A stretch of DNA of 64,000 nt, from contig CM037462.1 in assembly GCA_021014325.1 (NCBI GenBank), positions 18,062,135 to 18,126,134 on the forward strand, read 5' to 3'. Shown piece after piece: positions 4,449-58,800 of this stretch. The position numbers and the translations under genes are program-made. The notes beneath the pieces are model-generated. The model did not search any database and was not told where the DNA came from. It saw only the letters and a program-made list of their open reading frames with translations. Every line of letters begins with the position of its first letter. Position 1 is the first letter of the stretch. Origin of the DNA: Plazaster borealis (taxonomy: Eukaryota > Echinodermata > Asteroidea > Forcipulatida > Labidiasteridae).

Positions 4449-4624
4449 TAGACCTTTATCATACTTCCACCATCTTGGTCATGTTCCCTGCATCCAGTAA
4501 ACGTAATGAATGCTAATACCCATTGTATAAAAAGGAACCAGACTATTTTTTCCTTCCAGCCTCGGTTTGATAACAATGAGTTGAATAGGAGAAAATCAAG
4601 ATGACCGCACCATGATAAAGGTCT
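4449..4624. mobile_element. Small fold-back element (tagacctttatcat ends)
   Basis: Left end tatagacctttatcatactt and right end accatgataaaggtctattc are inverted copies with mismatches; ccatcttggtcat pairs with aagatgaccg. The total is about 175 bp and there is no coding content. Confidence 0.6.
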
Positions 4625-5329
4625 ATTCCTTTACAAAGCACCATGTAATGGTTTACAAGGTGCTGTGGCGCAATATGCTGCCGATCAAACCAGGGTCTTG
4701 GGCCAAAATGCGGGTTACAGAAATAATTCTACTTGCCTCTTATGTTATTCCTGTCTGGTATAAAATCTTGATGATAAAAATGTTTTTCCTCTTTGATAAA
4801 ACAATAGTGGTAGCACTTAAAGCAGGTCTTACACAGAGGCCACGGAGGCCATGGCCTCTGTTGCCCCTGGTCTTGGCCTTGGTGCCAATTAAAAAGTTTC
4901 TCATATACTCTAAGATTTTGCAATGGCCCTTTGCTAAAACGGAAATAGCCTTGTCCTGTCAGAGATGAAATTTCAGGCCTGTGAAAGATTAACTTATGAC
5001 AAAAAGGTGCATGAGGCTTTCTTAGCAATTAAGCACTTTAATCAAATGCACTTTGAGTAAGGATTGATGACGAGTTGATACATCTATTATAATATTAATA
5101 ACCAATTTCCTGGTTAGTCACGGAGTGCTGAACAACCAAGAAGAACTGTTAATATTATTTTTGTTCAGGACTCCACCACCCTTGCCAAAGGGAAAATTCT
5201 ATACTACATACTCCCCATGTTCAGAGATGACATTAGGCCTATATGTAATATTTAATGTTTCATGGTATTTATGTGTGCCACGTTTTATGCTTTTACCAGT
5301 TTTCATCTATCAGCCCCACTTGGAGCTTT

Positions 5330-32685: not shown

Positions 32686-35038
32686 TTAAGCAGATGGTTC
32701 TGATGTTGTGGAACCCACTTTTGAGAGTCCATCACAATACTGAAATTCGCTACTGGTCTCATGCTCCCCCATGTCAAGCGCGACCACACAGCTCTCTCTA
32801 ACAACCCTCTCCTCATCCGTTAAGTATTCCTTGAGCTTATCCAGGCAATCCTCCTGAGCAATGGAACCCAAGGCCTCTGCGCACTCATGCCGAACCATGG
32901 AGTTCTCTTCGGATTTCCCGAGGGCCTCGAGAAGTTGCGGGATGCAGGCTCTGTGCTGCATCTGTCCGAGAACGTAGGCTATCTCGTGCCTAAAGAGTGC
33001 ACTTTTACACTGTAGACCTAAAATTAGAAAAAGTAGAAAGAGCATTTAGCAGTGTTGTAGGTCTCGAGACCGGTCTGGGACCTTCATGGTCTCAGTCTTG
33101 GTCTCGAACTTCTGGTCCCGGTCTCGGTCTTGAACCTTCAGGGGCCGATTTCACAAAGAGATAAGACTAGTCTTATCTGAAGTTAGGACCAGTAACTGGT
33201 CTTAACTTAAGACTAGTCCTATCTCTTAGCATTGCCTAGGACTAGTCCTAAGTTTGGAAGAGTTTTGTGAAATCAACCCCAGGTCTGGGTCTCGGTCTTG
33301 GACTCTCCGAGTCTCAGGTCTCAGTCTCAAACTATGGGTCTCAACTACAACACTGGCATTTAGAAGTGAATTTAGAATTTAGATTGGGGAGGGGTGACTA
33401 AGAGGAGAGACAATGCCTACCCTTGGCTAAAGCTCGTACTGCCGGCTCGTCGTTCCTGTTTCTCAAAGCAAACATAGCCCTGTACCTGTCGAAGAGAGAC
33501 GATTCCTCATCCAATAACCTCGCCTGAAGCTCCTCCAGGGTGGCTGTTACGGCTGGTGGAGCAGGATCCACCGATTTGAATGGGTTTGTTGTAATTTGGG
33601 TTTCTTCTTGAGCCCTCTGTTCACTCTGCAACCACTCTATCCTTTGCAAGGCTAACTGGCATGTCTCTGCAATCTGACGTTTGAAGGTTTGGTAAAAAAT
33701 GCAGCATAAAGTTATTCTATAGTATAGGACTGGGAGAGCTAATGTAGAAAAATGTCTCGATAAAATAGAACACAAAGTCAAGATTCAATTGTTATTGATA
33801 TTAATTTACCTCTGTGATGGGGTCGTTTTCATACTTCTTTAAGACACTTAAGATGCTGGGAGAACCAATCGCTCCAAGAGCTTCCCCTGAAATGGTTCAA
33901 TCAATTAAAGATAAAAACTTGACAATTATTAAAATAAATTCTGTGTTGGCCTATACAGGCAGTACTATCTGTGGAGATGATATCATTAACAAAATAATGA
34001 TAACACCAAAATACTTTTGTTTAAAACCAAATTGGCGAAGTTACAGCACTGCAGTGGTGCAACTGCAACATGTTTAACAGTGCCCCCCCCCCCACCTTGG
34101 CTTCCCCCTCCACCTTCCAAGTTCTATTGCGCCCATGCTACAGCTGGGTTTGTATTAAAATAACAGCTTTCTTAAAGGAACATTACAGAATTGGTTTTTG
34201 CTAACAAAACAGTTGCTGGCAGTGTAAGCACTTTATATAATCCACCATCATATACATAAACTGACAAACCTGTAGAAGTTTGAGATCGATCAGCCATCTG
34301 GGTCACGAGAAAATAGTGAAAAACCGATTACACATTTGCATGTGTTATACAATGCATGAATAAAACGCTCATGAGTGATAAACTCCAATCGGAAATTAGT
34401 TTTATTTATTTCTCATCAAATATAGCATTTCAGACAGAAATATTTCTAGGGATGTTTTCTACTATCATCATCATTAGACCGTGTAAGTTTTATGTAAATC
34501 TGTGATCTTCAAGAAAATTTTAATTACCAGTTCTGTAACGTTCCTTAGTTCTTAAGTCACCACAAAATTTACAATTTGCTTAGAATGACTGTTAGTGTTA
34601 CTGTGTTTAGTGTTCAGTAAAAAAAATATAAACAATTGCACCAATCGTGTACAGACATGACAGACAGACAGAATACTGTAAGAACAGGTACACCACACTT
34701 CCAGTCAGGCGCGGTATGTTATTGTTTGGCAATCAATTAAAATAGTTGATTTTGTTTTCACCTGCTTCATGTCTAACGATGGGTTCCTGGTTTACATCTT
34801 CAAGCACACTGACTAGTATTGGAATTGCTTCTTCATCTTGCATCTGACCAAGACAGTACGCAACCTCGTGCTTCAACAAGGCCGAGTCATCGCCGAAACA
34901 CCGTCCGATGCTGGCCACCGCTGCTGGCCCACCGAGATTACGCAACGTAAACAGGGCACGAAATCGCTCCGGGAGAGGTCGGGTTTTGTCGACTAAAACA
35001 TCCCCTATCGACTCAATTTCACTTGTATCTATTGGCAT
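32686..35038 (-). CDS. DOHH: Deoxyhypusine hydroxylase (complete, four exons)
   Basis: Di-iron HEAT-repeat enzyme that hydroxylates deoxyhypusine on eIF5A to complete hypusine. Exons in transcription order: 35038-34762, 33886-33810, 33673-33421, 33017-32686; all GT-AG. The product is 312 aa (human 302). Two HEAT-repeat halves are joined by a linker (about residues 125-160, [11 protein letters not shown]). The four metal-binding His-Glu pairs are present: H57-E58 ([11 protein letters not shown]), H90-E91 (VRHEAGEALG), H213-E214 ([11 protein letters not shown]) and H246-E247 ([10 protein letters not shown]). The start is the ATG giving [10 protein letters not shown]; the frame remains open upstream but that part has no family character. 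The C-terminus [20 protein letters not shown] matches the family end. Confidence 0.96.
33140..33284. mobile_element. Palindromic repeat (gatttcacaaagagataaga)
   Basis: Near-identical to 27209-27352, with both ends and the gactagtcctatctcttagc core. It lies in the last DOHH intron, flanked by a short ggtctcggtcttgga-rich stretch on both sides, into which it seems to have inserted. Confidence 0.75.
34171..34555. mobile_element. MITE-like element in DOHH intron
   Basis: Left end cttaaaggaacattacagaa followed by ttggttttt, and right end accagttctgtaacgttcct followed by TTA. The inverted ends are about 20 bp. It has a family-like layout but no sequence match to families A and B inside. Confidence 0.6.
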
Positions 35039-38000: not shown

Positions 38001-38802
38001 AAGAATTGTTCTTGTTTTGCCAACATGAATAATCTTTCTTCAATCATCTATTTCCGACCTATGGATTTTGAAAAAATATCAGCTGAAAAATCTGGGAGCC
38101 AAATTTGACTGAAAAGATCATTAAAAAATACCGTTTTTTATGATTAAAAAAAAAGAAAAAAAAATGGGGGCGGGGGGTTTTGTAGGGTCGGGCGGGGACG
38201 ATCAACAATTTTTTTTTTATGTGGCCTTAATACAATACTTCTAGCCCTGGTGGTGGGACGTCAGTGTCCGTCGTGTTGTATGCAACGGAGGAGCCCAACC
38301 TTGGCTAAATGACCATAATAAAACATAATAAATGATCTGATGATACAACCATGGAGTATGATGGAGGAAATCCTTCCTCCATCCATCATACCTGGATACA
38401 ACCAACGCAACAGTTGGCAACACTCAACAGTCAAGTCAACACTGTACTAAACAGACTGGGTTCATGTCAAAAATCTGCATAATGATAAAACATTGGAGAA
38501 AAAATATACACAATTAGTTATAAAATAAAGGATTGACTTGATATTGTAGGAGAAAACTATACAATTATTTATTTATTTCCCAGTGGAATTTCATAACAAT
38601 GCCAGAGCATTAATAATAGGCGTATCATTTTTGGCCCATTCTTACATGCAACATTTACATGTATAAACAACAATAACAAATACATCAAAGACAATAATAT
38701 AAAAATAAATTATCTAATTCTAAAACTAAAAAAAAAAAAAAAAAAAAAAAAATTAACTTCTGACTTCAATTATGACTGACAATTTTTAATTTTTTTTGCA
38801 GA
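35039..38802. other. Intergenic region between divergent DOHH and the microprotein/C9orf72 stack
   Basis: Contains the presumed DOHH promoter just above 35038, low-complexity A- and T-runs (36030-36052, 38144-38163, 38724-38750), and AT-rich sequence. No exon-like frame was seen. Just before the next features a good acceptor-like tract (tttttttttgcag) ends at 38802, which may mark a spliced 5' leader exon. Confidence 0.55.
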
Positions 38803-38990
38803 TCCTACAATTAAAATTCTGAATAGTATGGTATGTGTTGAATTGAGTCTGTGAAAAACTGATCGTATCAGCTCAGATCAGCTCAGTTTAAAACCAGCTT
38901 TGTACAACAACCACCATATGATTCAGATGTAGCTTGCATCAGAAGGATGATTTACCTCTGACCTTTGACCTGGGCTCCCTTTAAGGCATC

Positions 38991-39248
38991 ATGCCTGTGT
39001 ACAGTAAATGGATCGGCACAATCATCAACCACAACGGGCTCAAGTACATCTGCTTCAACCACATGGTGACGACGTACATCTTAACCAGTATGGTGATGTT
39101 CCTTATGACTCTCATCAACATCACGTCTTCTCCTCGTCTTGCCTCCATCGCTATGTCGGCTCTTGTTTCTCTCTTCATCCTGATGCTGTCCATCAAGTTT
39201 GCGCACCAGGTGGCTCATGGCTTCAAGACTCAATTTGAACTCCACTGA
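38991..39248 (+). CDS. Two-helix membrane microprotein 1 (85 aa)
   Basis: The intact ATG-to-TGA frame encodes 85 residues. Two hydrophobic segments (about 24-42 and 52-68) flank a short loop with SPRL. It is paralogous to the next ORF: both have (L/I)K-x-I-x-F-N before helix 1, PRL in the loop, and LSI-x-x-AH at the end of helix 2. That shared pattern over 57 residues is the main evidence it is real. The ATG has A at -3. No splice donor is evident between this ORF and the next. I do not recognise the family. It could be a stand-alone intronless gene or part of a polycistronic leader of C9orf72, whose start is 367 nt downstream of this stop. Confidence 0.68.
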   Translation: MPVYSKWIGTIINHNGLKYICFNHMVTTYILTSMVMFLMTLINITSSPRLASIAMSALVSLFILMLSIKFAHQVAHGFKTQFELH

Positions 39249-39328
39249 AATCAAAGTACTGCTTCTCTGTAGAAAAGAGGATCTGATTATTCATTTTATG
39301 TACTACCAGTGAATAAAGGCATTGTACT

Positions 39329-39610
39329 ATGCTTCCGCTTTATGTTCAACTGACGGAAACAACGGTTGACAATTTTAGTATCAAGCACATTTTCTTCAAC
39401 TTCCTCTTGTCCTCTTGCATCTCCAGCTGCCTCATCCTGTTCATGCTGGCAATAGTCAACGCCGGTACTCCACGTCTGACCGTCGGTGCTATGCTCTCAC
39501 TCATGACCCTTCTTGTACTTACCTTGTCCATCGAGTGTGCTCATAACATTATCTTCTGGTTACTCGTCAGCCACGAGATCCAAGGTGTCCTTGAGAATAG
39601 GAGCTTGTGA
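39329..39610 (+). CDS. Two-helix membrane microprotein 2 (93 aa)
   Basis: The frame runs ATG 39329 to TGA 39608-39610 and encodes 93 residues. Predicted helices are about 26-46 and 53-80, with an intervening loop INAGTPRL-type (VNAGTPRL). It aligns to microprotein 1 over about 57 residues with one single-residue gap. The start has A at -3 and lies 80 nt after the stop of microprotein 1. Its own stop is followed by five bases (ccaaa) and then the C9orf72 ATG at 39616. That spacing is too small for a separate promoter and terminator, so a shared transcript is likely. Function unknown; both proteins look like small membrane proteins of the same type. Confidence 0.7.
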   Translation: MLPLYVQLTETTVDNFSIKHIFFNFLLSSCISSCLILFMLAIVNAGTPRLTVGAMLSLMTLLVLTLSIECAHNIIFWLLVSHEIQGVLENRSL

Positions 39611-39615
39611 CCAAA

Positions 39616-42600
39616 ATGAGTTCCTCCTCCCAGGTTGACTCGGATAGTATCGGGATGGCGAGCTCTGTCGATGAGAATTATTCTCCTTCCATCTCGCAGA
39701 CGATGACTTTTATCGTCGATGCGGAAATGCACGAATCAGCGATCATAGAGACCCTGCCGGACACCAGGGATTGCCCGGTCTACGGGCTTGTCATGTGCTG
39801 CTGGAATAACATCCTCGGCCCGCATTCTAAATGCGTCTGGCTCACCGAAGACAAGAAGAAATTCACCCGGGATCATATCAACTACCTATCCACGCGTATG
39901 TTGACGTCGTGCGAGCAGCCGCAGTCCACAATTGACTCGAAGATTCTGATTCTTCCAGATCGAGGGATCATTGTAGCGGTGTTCTTATTCAGCGGCCATG
40001 ACCGGGATGAGAAGACGATCTTTGCGCTGTCGTTGGTCATACCTCAGGAGGAGTACACGTGGTATCTGCCCATTCATGAGATGTGCGCAGAAAGATTAAC
40101 TGGCATGATAAGGAAACTCAGGGTTCTACAAGACAAAACTAAAGATGAAGTAAGAATCCTTGAATTTGTTATTGACAAGGCATCCTACTCCTAGCCTCCC
40201 CAAATCCTCAAAAATCCATTTCATACTTTTGCTTGAACTTGATGCTTTTGGTAACGTGTACAAATGTAATTCCCTTGCTGATGAACAGATAGAGAGCTGG
40301 TAAAAATTCAAATTGATGATTGAAGCGAAATTCACTTAAGCCATAAACTAAGAAGTATGCAGCGCTCACACAAATGGGTGGTGTTTCCATCTACACATCC
40401 ACATTAGAGTTTTAGGTACATAGAGGTCAAGGAAAAAGTTCATAAATGTTTGCAGTATTTCCTATATGACAAATCTTCACAGCGAGTTGGTTATAATATT
40501 GACAAAAAGTGAGTAAGGTGGTCACTGAAAGTTGCGAGGTGGGCCCCCTATGTTTGAATGGGCAGAAAAACACCTGTGTACCCCTAACCACTAATCCACC
40601 TAATCTTGACACAAGGCCAGGACCCAATTTCACAGAGCTGCTTAAGCACAGAAAGTAGCCAAGCACAACCAAATTTTGCTTACCAGAATAAGGTTACCAG
40701 CCAAACTACAGTGTCACGCGTAGAATTTGTGACTGGTATCCTGCTCATTTATGCTTAGCAGACAATTGTATAAACAGCTCAAAGAAATTGGGCCCAGGGC
40801 TAGATTTCACAAAGCACTAAGATTCATCTTAAGAAGAGCTGGCAGTACTACCCTAGTGATTTGTACTATAACGTCACACTTTGCTTAGGAATTAAGGTTG
40901 ATTCGCACTTAAGATCAATCTGAGCTCTTAGTGAAATCAGCCCCTGGTGTACCAAATTTGATTTGGGAGAGTTTCTTGCCAGGGCTCAATTTTGTAGGGC
41001 AGCTTAAGCAGAAAACATTTCTTACATTTTGTTTGCTTAGCAGAAATGAGCAGGATACCAGTCACAAATTGTACATGTGATTGTAGTTTGGCTGGTAACC
41101 TTATTCCGGTAAGCATAATTTTGATGTGCTTAGCTACTTTTTGTGCTTAAGCTGCTCTATGAAATTGGGCTAGAAGAGATTAAGATAATAAAACTGGTAT
41201 TCAAAGTTTCTTCCTAACTTAAGCCCGGTTCATACTCCACACGAAAGCGAATGCGAAGCAAAGTTTTGTGACGCAATAATCGTTTTTCCAACTGTGACGT
41301 AAGAAAATTTGCTTTGCGAGTATGAACCGGGCTTTAATCCCCTCTTCGATTTAACTACTATTGACATTGTTCCAATTGCAGAATACTGGCTATGCACTAG
41401 AGGCATTCAGTGCAGAGATACCGTCTTTTATTCGACTTGTGACTTTGCTCAAGACTCATGGTGTCTCCTCAAGGATGGAGGTGAATCAAAATATTAATTT
41501 TATTCACTGACTTAAACCAGGGGTGTGTTCCTCTTGCCCAAACATTGCAAATGTTTGCCATCATTTGCAATCAACATCTGATGGAATGTGCTGCCAAATT
41601 TGGCGAGCTTTAGCAACAGACAGCAAACGTATTTCTGAGATGTTTGAGGGCGAGTGTTTTATTGAGTGCTCTCATTGAGTTTTATTGAGTGCTCTCACAT
41701 AAACTGGTTCCACTAAGCGTGTTGTCCAGACCTGATACTTCATGGAGGCAATGGAAGCAATTGCCTTGGTGCCCTTTGAAATGTTCCTGTAGAAATTCAG
41801 ATTTACCTCATAGATGTGCCCTTTACAAAAGGAAAACTGCTTTCCCCTAGAAGAATAAAGTATCAGGCCTGACTTTAAACATCTGAAGATGAAGCAAGTT
41901 TTCAGATAAATGTTCTATGTAAACGGCTAACAATCCAAAGTCCTTTTCCTGGTTTTACCAAAGCCTTTAAGCTCAGTTAGCGCTAAGTTAAACTACCCAT
42001 GCTCAACTTTAGTAATTTGACCTGAGTTCTGTTTTGTTTTCAGCTGCGAGACACGGTTTTCGCTCCAGGGCAAGTCAGGCAACTAGACGTACAGTTTACA
42101 AGAATGTGAGTACTGTACCAGAGTTGTATTTGCTGTTGATATCCAATGCATCATGTTTCAAATTTTTCTCCGAAAGCGTCTAATATAAAATGACATTTTA
42201 CAATATTTTAATGTGAGGTTAGAGACTTGTAATTTTCTGTCCACTTTCATATGGACTCAATCTATTGGAAAATGAGTGCATGATGATTCTATCTATTGAA
42301 AAATGAGTGCATCACAAAACAAAATTTGACCTTGCAGCCCCTCCTTAAAGTTAGGGTCAAGATCCAAAATTTCATGACCATAAAAACTTACTTGGTGAAA
42401 AGCACTGCAGCTGTTGATAGTATAAAGTGTTTTGAGAAAGGATTCCCTTCGAAGTAGTATGGTTTGGATAATTTTTCACCCCAAAACATTTGAATCTGAG
42501 AGAGGATTCATGCATGAATTGTTTCTCAAATTTCAGAGGGTTGGTGTCCGTTCGTGTATGCTGCGGCCAGAGATGCGGTTGGTAGTACTCGCTGCTATCT

Positions 42601-55244: not shown

Positions 55245-57658
55245 TTATAGATGGAAATGCGGTTTGCGCGCCACGTAGATCCCATCCACGTTACTGTAAC
55301 GGATGTTATGTTGAATCTGGAAACCTATCTCCTGAAGGTAGTTTGGCAGCTGTAATCCATTCTGGTATTCATCCATGTATGGCTCGGGACCATGCTGAGC
55401 TGTGGAGTTCCAGTCGACGCCGTATGTGTTACTTTCGACGTTCATATTTCGCCACTCTGGATCCTTCCAATACAAAACTGTTTGGAAACAAAACCAAAAA
55501 TAGTTGTATTGCCTCGAAACTGAGAACTTACGAAAGGCTCAAAAAAATTGAAGTCACCATAAGGTCTGGAATTACCCGGAGGCCATGGCCTCTGTTGCCC
55601 CTGGTCTTGGTCTTGGTGCCCCTTCAAAAATTTCCAATAGGCTTTAAGATTTTCCAATGAGTGCCCTTTGAAAAATGAAAATGGCCTTGCCCTCTCAAAG
55701 TTAAAACCCAGGCCTGCACCATGCACAAACCTGTGACATTTCATTAAATTAGATAGTAATACTTTTTGGGCGCGAAAAGCCACATCACTTTTTTTTTTAA
55801 GTAAAAGAGTTTATTTGCAGTGGGATACTTTTTGGGACGCTTGGAGGTAGCAGACTTACCAGGTAAAACCATTGTTCTATAATGATGTGCGCATGCCCAG
55901 AACGCGTGCATTTTTTTACACCGCAGCGAGGGGTTTTGTACTGTAACACTGTCAATTCCGTCTTGAGATAGGAGACTACGTCTAACCCTAAACCCTAACC
56001 CTAACCCTCACCCTCATCCTAACCCTCACCCTAACCCTAACCCTAACCCTAACCTTAACCCTAACCCTAACCCTAGACCTAACCCTTTATAGGCATAAAT
56101 GTTTGTAGTCTCATCTCCCAGTACAAAACCCCTCGCTGCGGTGTAAACAAAAATATGCGACCAGAACGACGTGAACAATGACAATTTATCTGCCGCCACC
56201 TAGAGTTCCAAAGTCTCCCTTTGAAAAGACTTTTGCACAAATTTTCCTGGAACGTAAACTCACCGTCAAAGCCGCTGACAACACCGCCCGGCTTCAACAG
56301 CCGATGGATCTCCCGTAAGACCCTCTTGCTGTTCTCTTGCGGCATCTCGTGGAGGACGTACGTAAACTGAATCAGGTCAAACGACTCTGACGCGAATGGG
56401 GTCAGCTCGCCGTTGGCCTGGTAGAAGGCAATGTTCTTGGCACCGCGTTGTTCCTTCCAGAGGCGGCAGAATCTGTGAGGAGGACAACGGTCACAAGTTT
56501 TTTATTGGAATGAAAAACTTTCTGGCAGCTGCCATTTTCTCAGGAATCAACAGCTTTACTGAGGCGAATTTTTAGCCTACTCTTCTCATAGGTTTTTAAC
56601 CAAACATGTTTGGCATGTTTACATTTGATTTGACTACTATGTAAATTGTGAGCCACAGCTTGCCATATTTTATTATTTAAAGCAACACCTTACCTGATGT
56701 AAGCTGGGGCCAAGTCAATGCCGATGACCTCAGCTTGAGGAAATATCTCTCCCAAGACGAAAGCGGAACCACAATTCCCGGTTCCCACTTCCAATATTCT
56801 CTTGGGCGCGCGATGACCATGCAACTGCTGCAACCAAGGCTTCAAATTGATCTCGTTCTCAAAGTTGAACTTATTGTAGGTGCTGTAAGACATGCGGACG
56901 CTGTGTCCGTTCAGGTAGCCCCCGGGGATGAAGTGAACGTAGGTCTTGTCGTAGTGGTACGGATACCGCATTGGGGTGGTCACCCCAGGCGCCCAGACGT
57001 CCGAATCGTCCTCCGCTCCAGCGAAGACCGGCAACGTCGCTACGTAATTCTGGAAGTACTCGGTGAAAGCTTCGAACCCGATGTCGTCGTAACGGAATGA
57101 ACGCATAAAGATGTAGTTTTCGAACGGCATGACGGGTACCAGGGCGTCCTTTTCGGTGTCGAACACGGGTGGCTCCGGTGGGAAAGTAGGTAAACGATCG
57201 TACAGCAAGAACTTCATAAACGTCAGGAAGTTCTTGAGGTACTTTATATCGTTCCCATCCCAGTTGATTCCCAGGAAGTCACCGTAGAGGGTCGTCTGAG
57301 AAAGAGAGTCATACTGGGTGAGTGAGGCCTTCATGTAGGTGTCCAGGTTTGACAGGGTGTTGTCGTTGTCTGCTGGTAGACGCAGCTCCTTGTAATACCA
57401 CGACTTGAGGGAGTCAAAGTGCTGGAAGTCTGCGTAGCTACGGTGGATGAAACCCTCCACCTCCTCACCATCCTCGGTCCGTACCGTGAACTCGATCCGG
57501 TAGACGGGCTGGCCGCGGAAATCCGGCGAGTCCTTCTGGTAGGAAACTACGGATGCTTTCACCGGTGTGCCGAAGATTGCCCTGGGGAAGTAGGAAGCTA
57601 TCAACGGTGACGGCAAACCGATGGCGATCAGAAAAACGCCCAACGTCCATAAAGCCAT
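55245..57658 (-). CDS. PX-like domain fused to SAM-dependent methyltransferase
   Basis: Exons in transcription order: 57658-56694, 56472-56264, 55477-55245 (TAA); GT-AG introns; 468 aa. The start ATG (MALWTLG) is in strong context with A at -3 and G at +4; the frame upstream has no ATG. Residues 5-22 are hydrophobic, a signal peptide or membrane anchor. Residues 33-132 look like a PX (phox) domain: beta-type start, then HRSYADFQHFDSLK (72-85), LP (94-95), and LSQTTLYGDFLGINW ending the fold. Residues 286-400 are a class I methyltransferase: motif I ILEVGTGNCGSA (about 288), acidic VIGIDLAP (311-318), ESFDLIQFTYVLHEMP, and LLKPGGVV. The substrate is unknown. PX placement is by pattern only; the methyltransferase call is firm. 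Odd: a possible luminal or secreted N-terminus next to a normally cytosolic lipid-binding fold. Confidence 0.85.
55903..56160. mobile_element. Fold-back element with interstitial telomeric tract
   Basis: The centre (55981-56090) is a CCCTAA array with a few variants (ccctca, cctcat, ccttaa). Flanking inverted arms are ccgcagcgaggggttttgta (55921) and tacaaaacccctcgctgcgg (56121), with an inner pair gagactacg / tgtagtctc. The whole lies in intron 2 of the methyltransferase gene. End-related sequence (ctgccaccta, acttaccagg) also occurs near 24470-24545. Confidence 0.82.
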
Positions 57659-58189: not shown

Positions 58190-58800
58190 CATCCAAAGTC
58201 CTGGAAGCAGAGCTGTGTATTGAGAGAGTTGCGACATGGAGGGACCAGCTTTCTCCGGTCACGTGGTTGCTGGACGCCATTTTGTTCCAAAATGCAGTAC
58301 AACCCAATGGGCAGACTAGTCTGGCACCCTGTATTCGCCAATGCATTTTTTGGAGACAAAATGGCTCCTAATCGCAAGTTGTCGCAACTCTCTCAATATA
58401 CGGCTCTGCCTGGAAGGACCGAACAGCGCCCTCAAACATTAAAGATAAAATAAATATCATAACATGGCTGGTCCAGGGCCCAATTTCATAGAGCTGCTTA
58501 AGCAGAAAATATTGCTTAACAATTGTTTGCCAAGCAGAAGTGAGCAGGATACCAGTCACAAAGTGTACATGTGACATGGTAGTTTGGCTGGTAACCTTAT
58601 TCTGGTAAGCATAATTTTGTTGTGCTTAGCTACTTTGAAATTGGGCCCAGCGCTTGGGCTGGTCCAGAGCTGTGGGCTGGTCCAGAGCTGTGTATTGAGA
58701 GAGTTGCGACATGGAAGGACCAGCTTTCTCCGGTCACGTGGTTGCTGGTCGCTAATCTCAAGTTGTCGCAACTCTCTCAATACACAGCTCTGGGCTGGTC
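58190..58800. mobile_element. Two related fold-backs with a family C element between them
   Basis: At 58205-58420 the arms are cagagctgtgtattgagaga and ctctctcaatatacggctct; at 58675-58795 they are agagctgtgtattgagagag and ctctctcaatacacagctct. Both enclose ctttctccggtcacgtggtt. A family C copy lies between them at 58479-58650. This region upstream of the methyltransferase gene has no coding evidence. Confidence 0.72.

Follow-up and report, generated by a model that had tools for sequence, protein, structure and literature searches.

Two paralogous, predicted membrane microproteins encoded immediately upstream of C9orf72 in Plazaster borealis

The C9orf72 gene and the reading frames that precede it

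The window analysed here is a stretch of 64,000 nucleotides from Plazaster borealis. On its plus strand lies a gene that, judged by the protein it encodes, is C9orf72, a DENN protein and the relative of a human motor-neuron-disease gene product. The match to the Pfam profile PF15019 (E 4.2e-12) reaches 46.7 bits against a cut-off of 27, and the solved human C9orf72 (PDB 6lt0_C) is matched with an E-value of 1.4e-19. The similarity falls into four collinear blocks in a single frame, spanning 39.8 to ∼51.9 kb, and two of these blocks are significant alone; C9orf72 was also sought in the two other forward frames and was not found there. Two short open reading frames, ORF1 and ORF2, precede the gene, with the coordinates and lengths given in an earlier note on this DNA. 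The features of the region are listed below; the splice-site weights behind the ranks are general consensus values.

38800..38802, plus strand: predicted acceptor AG and first base of the putative shared exon; seventh of 3,516 plus-strand AGs
38991..39248, plus strand: ORF1, 85 amino acids, predicted two-helix microprotein of family A
39312..39317, plus strand: AATAAA separating ORF1 from ORF2, at which an ORF1-only mRNA might end
39329..39610, plus strand: ORF2, 93 amino acids, predicted two-helix microprotein of family B, paralogue of ORF1
39425..39427, plus strand: weaker alternative acceptor within ORF2, predicted; 34th of 3,516 AGs
39599..39625, plus strand: predicted 10-bp RNA hairpin with its loop at 39609-39615, in the gap between the ORF2 stop and the C9orf72 start; weak
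39616..40149, plus strand: part of the first coding exon of C9orf72, bounded by the upstream ATG and the predicted donor
39698..39700, plus strand: alternative acceptor AG and first exon base, predicted; tied 10th-11th of 3,516
39703..39705, plus strand: second-choice in-frame ATG of C9orf72, 3 nt after the predicted acceptor

ORF1 and ORF2 are separated by 80 nt, and ORF2 stops 5 nt before the in-frame C9orf72 ATG at 39616, just as the earlier note had described; the last stop upstream in the C9orf72 frame is located at 39598. All three starts carry an A at -3, another of its observations that holds, with an expectation of ∼2.7% by base frequency. The ATG at 39703 gives an N-terminus of human length: counted from this codon, residue 24 is the first to align with human C9orf72, and in the human chain it is residue 23.

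The genes on either side occupy the minus strand. HEAT-repeat exons (PF13646, PF03130) at 32686-35038, which we take to be a likely deoxyhypusine hydroxylase, are arranged head to head with the C9orf72 locus, ∼3.8 kb from the acceptor at 38802. Pieces of a methyltransferase gene (Methyltransf_11, E 3.1e-12) are found at 56079-57658, and the upstream piece, 322 amino acids long, matches only weakly and near its end (E 0.0069).

The microprotein pair and its relatives

ORF1 and ORF2 are true paralogues. BLASTP aligns them at 31% identity over 74 columns with a single gap (E 8e-14), a longer span than the ∼57 residues over which their mutual similarity had been claimed, and hhalign returns an E-value of 5.6e-16. 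With a Smith-Waterman score of 122 they rank first of the 9,255 non-overlapping pairs formed by the 137 ATG-initiated frames of at least 50 amino acids in the window. That score was reached by none of 2,000 full shuffles, which peaked at 58, and by none of 2,000 ten-residue-block shuffles, which peaked at 71. Taken together, the local shuffles, hhalign and BLASTP place the similarity beyond what composition and hydropathy would produce. Across 73 aligned codons, identity amounts to 0.42, 0.77 and 0.45 at positions 1, 2 and 3 against shuffled means of 0.27, 0.33 and 0.30, a pattern that would result from retention of a membrane-helix protein during divergence of the underlying DNA. A search of 2,211 stop-to-stop frames disclosed no further copy within the window, the next match having an E-value of 0.76.

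Other high-scoring pairs of frames in the window, at 116, 105 and 104, include two HEAT exons and probable repeats. The pair 4612-4968 and 55379-55660 (score 116) and the pair 40937-41116 and 58368-58577 (score 105) are each probably an interspersed repeat.

A search of ∼5.8 billion proteins recovered three ORF1-type relatives with identities of 96, 72 and 73%, and three ORF2-type relatives by ORF2 alone, with identities of 98, 49 and 70%, the last being a partial protein. A joint eight-sequence profile added two more of the ORF2 type, bringing these to five and the outside relatives to eight, none of which carries a Pfam domain or a name. The longest contigs bearing relatives measure 619 to 3,213 bases and may represent transcripts. 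In a tree built on nine of the ten proteins, from which the partial P0006 was omitted, the four sequences of type A are split from the five of type B with a support of 100/100. The separate clades imply that the duplication that gave rise to ORF1 and ORF2 is older than the split of the sampled lineages. Both types persist after this ancient duplication, and their presence together in one organism is observed for this window. In one ORF2 relative (P0007) the frame remains open for 23 residues further upstream of the aligned start, so that the stretch before ORF2 is readable in frame in that organism.

These observations bear on whether the two frames are coding at all. The window contains 29 ATG-initiated frames of at least 85 amino acids, that is, 27 besides ORF1 and ORF2, a figure that includes C9orf72 and other real exons, and frames of this size could accordingly be chance or decayed sequence. 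The noncoding reading is nonetheless close to refuted, and we regard it as extremely improbable: the similarity is at the protein level, with the excess concentrated at the second codon position, and eight outside relatives fall into separate clades. By the conservation of their peptides, ORF1 and ORF2 are conserved protein-coding smORFs.

A codon score was also computed, trained on a small, hand-chosen set (C9orf72, a methyltransferase-like exon and two HEAT exons) and thus a weak test. Of the three forward frames, it is the proper one that obtains the highest score in ORF1, in ORF2 and in the segment 39616-39699. Measured against overlapping open noncoding windows, they rank in the top 3.2%, 5.3% and 2.4%, respectively, with 18,547 such windows in the case of 39616-39699. 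Reverse frames reach 0.06, as against 0.17 for ORF1 and 0.12 for ORF2; for 39616-39699 one reverse frame (0.30) exceeds the C9orf72 frame (0.24). The coding-like character of this last segment in the C9orf72 frame favours use of the upstream ATG and an mRNA that includes the segment.

The earlier note did not recognise the family, and database searches bear this out, the protein relatives that were found being all nameless. Pfam, searched with all ten family members, gave no match above cut-off for ORF1, the best being DHHC (E 0.0059). An assignment of ORF1 to the DHHC palmitoyltransferases (PF01529) was rejected, as the match attains 16.7 bits against a gathering cut-off of 28.7, and only two of the ten members match this profile at all. 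No match was obtained for the two window proteins in NCBIfam at E 1, for the eight-sequence profile A1 in PDB at E 10, or in Rfam at the gathering threshold. A viral and a prokaryotic origin were likewise rejected: with the ten-protein alignment and a single peptide pattern, a scan of viral_contigs yielded 20 pattern matches and a scan of genome_contigs 18, none of which was confirmed in either case.

ORF1 and ORF2 are predicted to cross the membrane twice. The two helices per protein that had been proposed reappear in the AlphaFold2 models as two long helices each, at modest confidence (mean pLDDT 65.4 for ORF1 and 68.1 for ORF2), with an additional short N-terminal helix in ORF1, and two hydropathy peaks above 1.6 are present in either protein. 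Twelve positions show fixed differences between families A and B, and a single one of these is a site of opposite charge: residue 69 of ORF1, in helix 2, is Lys in all four A-type proteins and Glu in all six B-type proteins. The overall charge contrast between the families is uneven. ORF1 carries a net charge of +4 and each of its three relatives one of +3; for ORF2 the value is -2, and its five relatives have -1, 0, +2 (the partial P0006), -1 and -1. The Lys/Glu contrast suggests a heteromer in which ORF1 and ORF2 meet close to the end of helix 2; such pairing would account for the continued presence of both types next to each other. As one of twelve fixed differences, the contrast may be plain divergence.

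Exon sharing and the production of C9orf72

Between 38831 and 40148 no donor scores above 2.5, in keeping with the absence of a strong donor between the two frames and the C9orf72 start that had been reported. Neither AATAAA nor ATTAAA occurs between 39318 and 41186, so that a message bearing ORF2 would be expected to extend into C9orf72. The 5-nt gap, combined with the lack of a good donor or poly(A) signal between ORF2 and C9orf72, indicates that one exon probably carries all three. The simplest reading is a predicted single exon that is delimited by the strong acceptor at 38802 and the donor following 40149 and accommodates ORF1, ORF2 and the start of C9orf72; the linkage of the pair to C9orf72 is observed for this window.

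The same signals can be read as belonging to separate genes. ORF1 and ORF2 would then have their own promoter and be polyadenylated within the first intron of C9orf72 or, where ORF1 is transcribed by itself, between the two frames, C9orf72 would be expressed from another promoter, and the closeness would be an accident of compact packing. The AATAAA at 39312, a further AATAAA at 41187 in intron 1 and the good acceptor within ORF2 at 39427 are all consistent with this arrangement. We nevertheless judge it improbable: as ORF2 has no AATAAA or ATTAAA before 41187, the exon of C9orf72 would remain part of any ORF2 mRNA, and the coding-like segment 39616-39699 also argues against it.

The predicted strong acceptors at 39427, in ORF2, and at 39700 would make separate messages possible. 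The AGs assigned to later C9orf72 exons score between 0.5 and 6.4, which means that the score predicts acceptor use poorly, and several other high-ranking AGs have no recognised gene adjoining them. A run of 25 A is present at 38728-38752, upstream of the acceptor at 38802. An inverted repeat (38745-38756 and 38786-38797) pairs this run with the T-rich tract of the acceptor, and the resulting hairpin could hide the site.

The earlier note had inferred a tricistronic exon. Two paralogous, conserved and likely membrane microproteins in an apparent single exon with C9orf72 are what stands of this proposal; a translated tricistronic mRNA is a further, hypothetical step, and the acceptors at 39427 and 39700 had not been weighed. 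In its full form the proposal entails one long transcript on which ribosomes that terminate at the end of ORF2 reinitiate at 39616 to translate C9orf72, and this we consider rather unlikely. The 5-nt interval between stop and start would be short enough for a ribosome hand-over, 39616-39699 is coding-like in the C9orf72 frame, and the predicted hairpin whose loop lies in the interval has a z-score of -3.42, with none of 200 shuffles as stable. However, an equal stability is attained by 107 of 9,137 equally sized windows, and by 32 of 2,670 of like G+C, which renders the hairpin weak evidence, while the larger fold of 141 nt is ordinary (z -1.10). The reverse frame that outscores the C9orf72 frame in 39616-39699 detracts from the coding argument. 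Reinitiation generally needs a minimum spacer after short uORFs and special elements after longer ORFs (PMC5972666), and by that account 93 codons followed by 5 nt are unfavourable. Plain leaky scanning was discarded as a way to reach C9orf72: 20 AUGs are encountered from 38802 to 39615, 15 of them from the ORF1 start onward, and this number makes such a route unlikely.

The reading that we favour, from the arrangement of predicted splice sites and start codons, is that C9orf72 is mainly produced from a short splice form and that a long form serves the microproteins. In the long form, splicing to 38802 would keep ORF1, ORF2 and the C9orf72 start in one exon; both small frames would be translated, delivering the two partners from one message, and C9orf72 would be made at most inefficiently, through reinitiation. 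In the short form, splicing to 39700 would drop both small frames and place the ATG at 39703 three bases past the junction. The choice of acceptor would thereby determine how much of the microprotein pair is made relative to C9orf72. We give about an even chance to the whole combination, namely an ancient, conserved two-pass pair that shares an exon with C9orf72 and binds as matched partners by opposite charge, with C9orf72 derived mostly from the shorter splice form.

A bolder scheme, which we rate as very unlikely, would make C9orf72 the third cistron of an operon-like locus, the first two encoding a membrane heteromer, obligate and paired through Lys and Glu, by which the C9orf72 complex would be anchored or tuned at its membrane; the exon switch or stop-start coupling would set the ratio of anchor to C9orf72. 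Any contact between the microproteins and C9orf72 is speculation, and the coupling to the DENN protein that the earlier note had raised is likewise hypothetical. A conserved pair of small membrane proteins set against the C9orf72 start in another animal would be a natural candidate for a partner that was lost or has escaped detection, and the locus offers a place to test this idea. Paralogous microproteins lodged in the same exon as a large gene would also be easily missed by gene annotation.

Comparison with known polycistronic loci

Among the matches listed in a search of the open-licence PMC literature, none dealt with a polycistronic C9orf72 or with microproteins upstream of it. Animals are known to have polycistronic loci, as exemplified by tarsal-less/polished rice in Drosophila; what appears to be new here is the microprotein family and, as its partner, C9orf72. 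The description of a tricistronic exon as rare in animals needs qualifying: FlyBase release 6.04, as summarized in PMC4528330, lists 159 dicistronic pairs together with seven tricistronic and two tetracistronic sets, that is, nine sets of more than two genes. Similar genes are present in ∼18% of the polycistronic loci of the fly, and monocistronic forms are also made from many of these loci, some of them by alternative splicing (PMC4528330). The likeness lies in the several short ORFs that an animal transcript carries in those loci (PMC4528330), transcript sharing being a prediction in the present case. The difference is that C9orf72 is the downstream partner here and that the family has no Pfam match above cut-off and no NCBIfam match.

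The mammalian bicistronic mRNAs GDF1/CERS1, SNURF/SNRPN and RPP14/HsHTD2 contain two functional ORFs, with leaky scanning or reinitiation proposed (PMC4705651). The predicted one-mRNA layout at the Plazaster locus resembles these two-ORF messages, but its upstream frames are two in number, mutually paralogous and predicted to encode membrane proteins. Calicivirus termination-reinitiation (TURBS), as outlined in the relevant passage of PMC5972666, likewise involves stop and start codons that are very close; the locus described here belongs to an animal, and its stop and start do not overlap.

In the dual-coding gene TP53BP1/SEP53BP1, the form of the transcript decides whether the small protein is made (PMC10193022). 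A choice of transcript form as a switch is also what is proposed here. The small ORF of SEP53BP1 overlaps the main coding sequence and uses another promoter, whereas in Plazaster both ORFs are situated upstream and splicing is the proposed switch.
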